A stretch of DNA of 11,342 nucleotides from Elusimicrobiota bacterium (GTDB taxonomy: Bacteria; CG03; SLGR01; PWQF01). Below, in pieces: positions 1 to 5,887 of this stretch (position 1 is the stretch's first letter; the number at the start of each line of letters is the position of its first letter). The translations under genes were made by a program, and so were the position numbers. The notes under the pieces are model-generated. The model was not told where the DNA came from and ran no database searches. It saw only the letters and a program-made list of their open reading frames with translations. The stretch is taken from the NCBI GenBank assembly GCA_003557485.1, contig PWOI01000109.1, forward strand, positions 1 to 11,342, in the 5' to 3' direction.

Positions 1-7
1 CTATCAT
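1..7 (-). CDS. start of a minus-strand gene that leaves the window (2 codons visible)
   Basis: An ATG at 5-7 on the minus strand sits 8 nt after a strong Shine-Dalgarno, GGAGGTG (17-23). Only ATG ATA and one further base lie inside the window, so the product cannot be named. The call rests on the quality of the ribosome binding site, the leader ORF and SD-pairing hairpin just upstream, and the fact that the next genes to the right run in the same direction. Two plus-strand frames are also open across 1-121, so a plus-strand gene ending here is an alternative, though neither frame gives a recognisable product. Confidence 0.45.
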
Positions 8-13
8 TTTACT

Positions 14-89
14 GGCACCTCCTGGGTGGATATTGTTAAAAACCGTTATGGCTTTTTTTATCGTCAATATTTTACCATTTGGAGGTGCC
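14..89 (-). promoter_or_regulatory. long RNA hairpin sequestering the SD of the left-edge gene
   Basis: In minus-strand RNA, GGCACCTCC (81-89) pairs perfectly over 9 bp with GGAGGTGCC (14-22), which contains the SD of the left-edge gene. The 58-nt loop can fold further: ATATTG pairs with CAATAT, and inside that AAAAGCC pairs with GGTTTTT around an ATAAC loop. The folded state would hide the ribosome binding site. The upstream arm begins 9 nt after the stop codon of an 8-codon leader ORF, so a ribosome paused on the leader would cover that arm and free the SD. This is the geometry of cat and erm translational attenuators. The structure is read by eye and the regulatory role is inferred. Confidence 0.55.
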
Positions 90-97
90 TTTTTCAA

Positions 98-124
98 CTA
101 AGAATCGCTCAACTTAGGTAACAT
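98..124 (-). CDS. putative 8-residue leader peptide (MLPKLSDS)
   Basis: A short ORF starts with ATG at 122-124 and ends with TAG at 98-100. It encodes MLPKLSDS. An excellent Shine-Dalgarno, AGGAGG (130-135), lies 5 nt upstream, far better than chance spacing would suggest for a non-gene. It ends 9 nt before the anti-SD arm of the downstream hairpin, which suits a regulatory leader rather than a functional peptide. The sequence does not match any stalling peptide I recognise, so the inducing signal is unknown. The region upstream (136-200) is AT-rich and contains TATATT, but I see no convincing -35 box. Confidence 0.45.
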   Translation of the reverse strand: MLPKLSDS

Positions 125-289
125 TATTCCCTCCTATAACGTGATAAATATATAGTTTTTCTAACGAATTTTAGAAGATAGTGAGTTTCCTATAATGTCT
201 GTAAAAGTTGATCTTTGAAACTTGAATTGTTTAGATTTTCTTTCGAGGGCGTTGGCAGAACCGTTACTGAAGAGATCTATAAAAAGGTT

Positions 290-4209: not shown

Positions 4210-5247
4210 CTATGACTGCTCCAGTATCTTGGAGATAAACTCCTTAAATTCTTTTTCATATTTCCGGGGCGGAATATTCGGCCCGGGAAACGGAGGCAGT
4301 TCCATCTCGCTTTCCATTAATCTTTTAACTATTGTATCCATTGACTGGCGCATTTTAGAGCTTCTGATATAATCCGAATCCGTTTCACTGATATTATTCA
4401 GTAAGCTGAGAACTCCGGATAACGATTCATACATCGCTATCCAGTTTATCCACTCAGGCGGCCGGGTTTCTTCAATATCAATATCAAGGAGGAACTTCCA
4501 CCATTTACCCTGAGAAAGCCGGTACTCTTTTTTTCTTTTACCCGGCCTGCCCTCCAGAACCAGCCCTGACCCTGCAAGGTCTATAAGAGCATCCTGCGTT
4601 CCTCTGACGGAGAGTCCTATCGCATCTGCGACCCGGCTGGGATGCCCCCAATCGTGCGTCATAAGATACAGTATACATTCAGCCCTGCTGCCTGTACCCA
4701 GCAATGACCTCAGCATAAACCTGATATTAGAGGGTTTTTTAGGATTTGCCTTCTTTGATTTTCCGCTTGCGCTAAAAACCGGCCGGCTTAAAGCGTATTC
4801 AGAAAATATATCATCTTCCCCCCCTATAACCGGATAATCTTTATTATCCCTGGTTTTAAATAAAATCTCTTTCTTATCTATGCCTTTATTCCTGCCGCAC
4901 CTGCTCAAAGACTGCCATTTTCTGCGGTATGATTTTGCCTCTTTCATAAGAATAGCAGCAACAGCCCCTAAAAGAGCCTGCGTCCCGGGATTCCTGCTTT
5001 TTATTATCCCCCTCAAGCGCTGGATATCCATAACCCCTCCGTTTTTTATCAGCCAGTCTATAATCTCATCAAAAAGCCTGGGGTCATACCTTGCCGCCTC
5101 AAGAGAAAAAACCAGCAGGGCTTCCGGATCCAGTATCCTCTTATATTCCCCGGCCCCGCTGCCGGAGAGGCCCATAGCGGACCACTGCCTCCAGAGCAAA
5201 TCCAGAACGCCGTCAATAAAGTATTCTCTAAATTCGGTCTGCGACAT
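4210..5247 (-). CDS. winged-helix protein partnered with a nucleotidyltransferase (unknown function)
   Basis: This 345-residue soluble protein is not one I can name. Its N-terminal part (1-110) is helical, with motifs WRQWSAMGL (19-27), DPEALLVFSLEAARYDPRLFDEI (40-62) and DIQRLRGIIKSRN. A low-complexity basic linker (about 105-175) leads to a winged helix-turn-helix (about 176-250) with recognition region RVADAIGLSVRGTQDALIDL and wing GLVLEGRPGKRKKEYRL. The C-terminus is charged and helical. It overlaps the upstream nucleotidyltransferase gene by 20 nt, so the two are co-translated. By analogy with AbiEi, a likely role is DNA-binding antitoxin/autorepressor, with the palindrome at 5924-5960 as candidate site; this is inference. 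The order (enzyme first, HTH second) is the reverse of abiE. The SD is poor (GGGG 7 nt upstream), as expected for coupled translation. Confidence 0.8.
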   Translation of the reverse strand: MSQTEFREYFIDGVLDLLWRQWSAMGLSGSGAGEYKRILDPEALLVFSLEAARYDPRLFDEIIDWLIKNGGVMDIQRLRGIIKSRNPGTQALLGAVAAILMKEAKSYRRKWQSLSRCGRNKGIDKKEILFKTRDNKDYPVIGGEDDIFSEYALSRPVFSASGKSKKANPKKPSNIRFMLRSLLGTGSRAECILYLMTHDWGHPSRVADAIGLSVRGTQDALIDLAGSGLVLEGRPGKRKKEYRLSQGKWWKFLLDIDIEETRPPEWINWIAMYESLSGVLSLLNNISETDSDYIRSSKMRQSMDTIVKRLMESEMELPPFPGPNIPPRKYEKEFKEFISKILEQS

Positions 5248-5827
5248 CGCTGAACCCCAATTCCCTTAATAAATCAACCAGGATAACTTTAAAGCCTTCG
5301 GAAACATCATGCGTCATTGCCCATAACGCCGCCGATTCAATCTCACCTGAAGACGGCGATAAGGCCTTTAAATCATCATAATGTTTTCCGGCTCCCTGAT
5401 CTGCTGCAGCATACAGCTTGAAATGTATTTGATCATACCTCCCGATATAATGAACGCGAAGGCTTTCACCGTATGTACGGGTCTCGACCCTTTCCATTAG
5501 CCCCCGGGGCATCCCGAAATCCATCATTGAGGACGGCTCATTGTTTATCCATCTGTCATTCAGATTAAAATCCTTTTTTACTTTTTCCGCTGCCGAAAAA
5601 AGCAGAGAACCAAGTGACTCCGCCTTATGCAAAACAGTTTCTCCACTGCTGTTTTTACCGGCAAAAGCAACAATATCAATATCCATAGTAGCGCGGGCAA
5701 TATAGCCAAGAACACTGAGCGCGGCTCCGCCGCATACAACTATCTCAATACTGCCTGCGCCCGCTTCCTGCAGCTGCTCAGCAAGCGCGCTTAGAATTGT
5801 CTCAATATCATTCCTGTTTTGGAACAT
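5228..5827 (-). CDS. DUF6036-like nucleotidyltransferase (putative toxin)
   Basis: From ATG 5825-5827 (SD AAAGGG, 7 nt spacing) the product is 199 residues. The nucleotidyltransferase core is clear: VVCGGAALSVLGYIARATMDIDIVAF (30-55) gives the GG loop and the D-x-D pair (D49, D51). A later block IHFKLYAA...KHYDDLKAL (134-156) matches the K-L-x-A and (R/H)xxDDL elements of AbiEii/DUF6036-type enzymes. An in-frame TTG at 5878 would add 17 residues (MKRLMMHRN...) but has no SD and those residues do not look conserved. Members of this broad family modify RNA or proteins with nucleotides; the target here is unknown. It is the first gene of a two-gene unit with the overlapping winged-helix protein, so a type IV-like toxin-antitoxin role is inferred. 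The catalytic motif is intact. Confidence 0.85.
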   Translation of the reverse strand: MFQNRNDIETILSALAEQLQEAGAGSIEIVVCGGAALSVLGYIARATMDIDIVAFAGKNSSGETVLHKAESLGSLLFSAAEKVKKDFNLNDRWINNEPSSMMDFGMPRGLMERVETRTYGESLRVHYIGRYDQIHFKLYAAADQGAGKHYDDLKALSPSSGEIESAALWAMTHDVSEGFKVILVDLLRELGFSDVADRI

Positions 5828-5887
5828 AGAATACCCTTTATTAATTGATCTATTTCTGTGCATCATCAACCGTTTCAATCTAAAGTT

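Follow-up and report, generated by a model that had tools for sequence, protein, structure and literature searches.

The window analysed here is a stretch of 11,342 nucleotides from an Elusimicrobiota bacterium. Its first base is the first base of contig C50 in a genome of 2.07 Mb that is assembled into 212 contigs. At the left edge a gene opens on the minus strand with ATGATAG (positions 7-1), the start codon occupying 7-5, and the remainder is off the contig; the gene thus cannot be followed beyond this point in the present assembly. The SD sequence of this gene lies within GGAGGTGCC (22-14, minus strand), which is complementary to GGCACCTCC (89-81, minus strand), so that pairing of the two arms sequesters the SD. 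A preliminary description of this region had proposed such a hairpin with further stems nested in its loop, and both were recovered: the 9-nt arms are present, and inner stems of 3, 6 and 7 bp are nested between them. Folding of minus-strand RNA from positions 135-1 predicted the hairpin with a free energy of -31.2 kcal/mol (z = -2.46; 4 of 200 shuffles equally good), and folding from 118, which is the element boundary described below, gave -30.0 (z = -4.04; 0 of 200 shuffles equally good). An 8-codon ORF, MLPKLSDS*, precedes the hairpin at 124-98 on the minus strand with an ATG at 124-122 and the SD AGGAGG at 135-130, the SD and ATG together spanning 135-122. The spacing between its stop codon and the 5' arm was counted as 8 nt instead of the 9 nt first reported. 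No Rfam family was found at gathering scores within the window.

Farther into the window, positions 183-227 on the minus strand bear the remnant of an IS256/Mutator-type element end. The same end occurs at the ends of contigs C171, C80, C145 and C127, the last of which includes a PF00872 transposase. A minus-strand gene pair at 2291-3941 matches AbiEii and AbiEi of the type IV toxin-antitoxin kind. A second nucleotidyltransferase gene (DUF6036, with a weak AbiEii match) is located at 4210-5878 on the same strand and overlaps a partner gene in its upstream region that encodes 345 aa and has no Pfam match.

Relatives of the left edge were sought with positions 363-1. Parts of the 118-1 block recur at 74-92% identity in genomes that belong to other families of Elusimicrobia, mostly at contig ends, and a contig that breaks inside a sequence recurring elsewhere indicates a mobile element. 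When the copies were compared by eye, matching began at CCTAAGTTGAGCGATTC (118-102, minus strand) and not before, and the flank differed each time. In one copy (L007 in G009) the same start codon is followed by a reading frame that continues into MIGNSTPKCKFRIDKIETTTDCLTARGGMVFIARY, a transposase N-terminus, which supports the earlier placement of a gene start at position 7. The peptide is 59% identical to the beginning of an element in G006:C64. The latter is a decayed full-length relative of ~1.9 kb with CCTAAGTTGAGCGATTC at both ends, and its PF13701 (IS1380-type DDE) transposase domain scores above the family cut-off and contains internal stops. PF13701 transposase genes that were found on plasmids are annotated as IS1380-like. 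As the 35-residue N-terminal peptide had no match to Pfam or NCBIfam in hmmscan searches, identification of the transposase relies on the longer relative. Comparison of these copies establishes that positions 118-1 on the minus strand are the left end of an IS1380-family insertion sequence. The hidden gene had been supposed to have a resistance, efflux or ribosome-related function; instead, the relatives show a transposase.

Terminal inverted repeats were observed at both ends of the G006:C64 element and, in G008, at left as well as right ends; the window has the left repeat only. Target duplications of IS1380-family elements are short, at 4-5 bp. Two left and two right ends in G008 share 5-bp flanks (TTCTT and TAAAA) of the kind that such duplications would produce, and by inference from these TGTTA at 123-119 (minus strand) is presumed to be one side of a 5-bp duplication in the window. 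A search of this genome failed to find the right end that belongs to the window's copy; the transposase gene of the copy lies off the contig, and PF13701 had no match elsewhere in this genome. When 84,980 species, each represented by one genome, were scanned with a degenerate version of this end, the whole end was recovered in Elusimicrobia only, the other matches being unrelated, and scans of viral contigs produced no relative of the element and one unrelated pattern match. Right ends in G008 (L031, L032) and G003 (L029, L030) have the terminal repeat in common and differ between the genomes just inside it, which suggests that several related elements exist in the phylum. In L007 (~115-160) the transposase start is preceded by the SD-like stretches ACCCATGAGGT and ACCCAGGAGGT, which resemble a duplication of a short piece.

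A near-consensus promoter for the transposase gene is predicted within the left end by a weight-matrix scan. It consists of a -35 box TTGAAA (97-92, minus strand) and a -10 box TAAAAT (74-69; TATAAT in most relatives) separated by a 17-bp spacer. The 5' arm of the hairpin is situated in this spacer, upstream of the predicted transcript start. The consequences for folding were calculated for both kinds of RNA. In RNA from 118-1, GGAGG was unpaired ~0.05% of the time with an opening cost of 14.6 kcal/mol. Inclusion of the flank to 135 gave a cost of 9.2 kcal/mol, a decrease that may reflect competition of the host AGGAGG for the arm. In RNA from the predicted promoter, GGAGG was ~58% unpaired and the opening cost was 3.7 kcal/mol. 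The left end also provides stop codons in three frames at 116-98 on the minus strand (TAA 116-114, TGA 111-109 and TAG 100-98), and all six distinct left ends have three-frame stops inside their first 21 bases.

These features suggest a mode of control. Transcription from the predicted promoter of the element would begin downstream of the 5' arm, and we propose that the resulting RNA, being devoid of this arm, leaves the SD open so that some transposase is made. RNA that reads in from neighbouring host genes would include both arms, fold and hide the SD, and an element that lands in a transcribed region would consequently be left off. Since the stops occupy all three frames, host reading frames would terminate there, and incoming host translation may thereby end ahead of the hairpin. 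It is probable that at this IS1380-family left end the arm within the promoter spacer seals the transposase SD on read-through RNA, whereas RNA from the element's own promoter would be open.

The wider occurrence of this layout was assessed with 48 transposase starts of IS1380-family elements from many phyla, which were drawn from genome searches and annotated plasmids and for which start codons were partly annotated and partly chosen by hand. An upstream partner of the start region outperformed dinucleotide shuffles in 26 of 48 cases at p<0.05 and in 17 of 48 at p<0.01. The longest helix was greater than in control ORFs (Mann-Whitney p = 5e-7), the controls being 68 uncurated ORFs. Arm pairs include CGGTAAATCCT/AGGATTTACCG in L071 and GGAAGTGCCT/AGGCACTTCC in Streptomyces, as well as pairs that cover the start codon in IS613 (TTTTGCCATG/CATGGCAAAA) and IS1380A (CATCGGGTT/AACCCGATG). 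The arm sequences differ while complementarity is retained, which constitutes covariation across the IS1380 family. Among the close copies in the Elusimicrobia group, intact arm pairs are too few for covariation, and the two G006 copies have lost arm pairing through decay. No stem was evident with the annotated starts of ISEcp1, IS1247 and several others.

With an approximate promoter matrix, the highest-scoring promoter-like sequence enclosed the 5' arm in 22 of 34 stem-bearing elements compared to 11 expected from shuffles, the 34 stems having been picked by eye, some of them failing the shuffle test, from a sample that includes near relatives. After close relatives were merged the proportion was 16/24 (p = 6e-4). 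In 30 of the 34 elements the predicted transcript start lay downstream of the 5' arm. When 15 elements were folded both ways, with transcript starts placed by hand, the predicted accessibility of the start region was higher in the RNA begun at the promoter in 14, although longer RNAs fold more regardless; the two predicted RNAs of L053 had practically no difference in opening. The comparison suggests that an arm-in-promoter design is common across the IS1380 family. We consider it reasonably likely that much of the family, including members in Elusimicrobia, Bacteroides, Enterococcus, Streptomyces and Acetobacter, retains a promoter-internal stretch able to pair with its own translation start, and that in some lineages the 3' arm has shifted off the SD and onto the start codon. 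If so, the family would conserve a means of self-protection from read-through that has yet to be described: a literature search that covered few subscription journals retrieved no description of translational control in IS1380 elements.

The region was originally viewed as a translational attenuator of the cat/erm type, in which stalling of a ribosome on MLPKLSDS would open the hairpin and thereby switch on the hidden gene. The parts do follow one another as this requires, from the SD and start codon through the short ORF to the hairpin that sequesters the second SD, and one other copy (L008) likewise has an in-frame SD and ATG upstream. The element begins at 118, however, and the SD and ATG of the ORF are therefore host DNA; PKLSDS* results from reading the terminal repeat in one of its frames. 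Thus, the 8-codon ORF with its SD is present as described, but it is a product of the junction, beginning in host DNA and ending in the terminal repeat, and does not qualify as a leader peptide. Conservation in relatives, by which the ORF was to be judged, did not materialize, as most other copies either lack an SD and ATG upstream of the terminal repeat or have different ones. Nor does a ribosome-stalling switch fit signals that belong to flanking DNA and differ between copies. The inverted repeat, for which the end of a transposon had been named as an origin that would speak against attenuation, does sit at the end of an IS1380-family element, and the hidden gene is a transposase. The boundary at 118 makes stalling-dependent induction extremely improbable, and a drug-inducible leader-peptide attenuator was rejected as a candidate because the SD and ATG lie in host DNA outside the element. 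Two of seven copies have a host SD and in-frame ATG just upstream of the element; in L008 (~70-125) these are 2-3 codons upstream in the same orientation and frame, yielding MIIPELSDS*.

Two further explanations retain the transposase and differ in what the arms do. The repeat might function at the DNA level, for instance as a subterminal site to which transposase binds, with RNA pairing to the SD as a side effect. Binding sites would be expected close to a transposon's left end, which is where the arms lie, but the right ends that were examined lack an arm, and across the family the arm sequence varies while the 3' arm continues to cover the SD or start codon; we regard this explanation as improbable. 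Alternatively, the hairpin could be part of all transcripts and generally lower transposase production, if the true promoter were to precede the 5' arm or to lie beyond the element. This is rather unlikely given that the arm is upstream of the predicted transcript start both here and in the 30 elements noted above, although the best promoter-like sequence is upstream of the arm in L077, L088, IS1678 and ISSsu5, and a stem-loop that hides a ribosome-binding site is documented for IS200 (PMC3196728).

Overall, the hairpin is real and was misread as a drug-responsive attenuator; read-through protection of an IS1380-family transposase is its most likely role, as judged from the predicted promoter and folds. 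The element would add to the examples of a form of control that is already known, and the layout shared across the family is the part worth following. IS1380-family elements mobilize resistance genes on clinical plasmids, and ISEcp1 adjoins CTX-M on an annotated plasmid. Silencing of an IS1380-family transposase within transcribed DNA is not described in the literature searched. Placement of an arm within the promoter spacer yields a prediction that is both simple and testable, and it may aid in locating true left ends and start codons. The locus also illustrates that a short ORF beside an SD-hiding hairpin can arise by an accident of insertion.

The cat and erm attenuators resemble the window in the presence of a short ORF upstream of an SD-sequestering hairpin, but here the ORF arose by accident at the insertion junction, and the gene under control encodes a transposase. 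A parallel is IS10/Tn10, which reportedly, in work of Davis, Simons and Kleckner from 1985, is protected from external promoters in that read-through RNA folds over the transposase start and RNA from its own promoter does not. The element here would behave alike, its read-through RNA folding over the start and its own-promoter RNA staying open, although the IS10 transposase is of another family. Terminators at the 5' ends of insertion sequences have also been proposed to prevent their expression in transcribed regions (PMC2965389). In IS200 the ribosome-binding site of the transposase is occluded by a stem-loop (Beuzon et al., 1999, as related in PMC3196728), which is similar to the arrangement predicted here; IS200 differs in that it has an extra terminator-like stem against incoming RNA, is unrelated and has no terminal repeats. 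A further comparison is with the named IS1380-family members IS1380A, IS613, IS1678, ISSsu5 and ISEcp1, with which relatives of the window element share a PF13701 transposase, terminal inverted repeats and a 5-bp target duplication. Whereas ISEcp1 and IS1247 depart from the element in having no such stem at their annotated starts, several named members are like it in possessing arm pairs with the start region.
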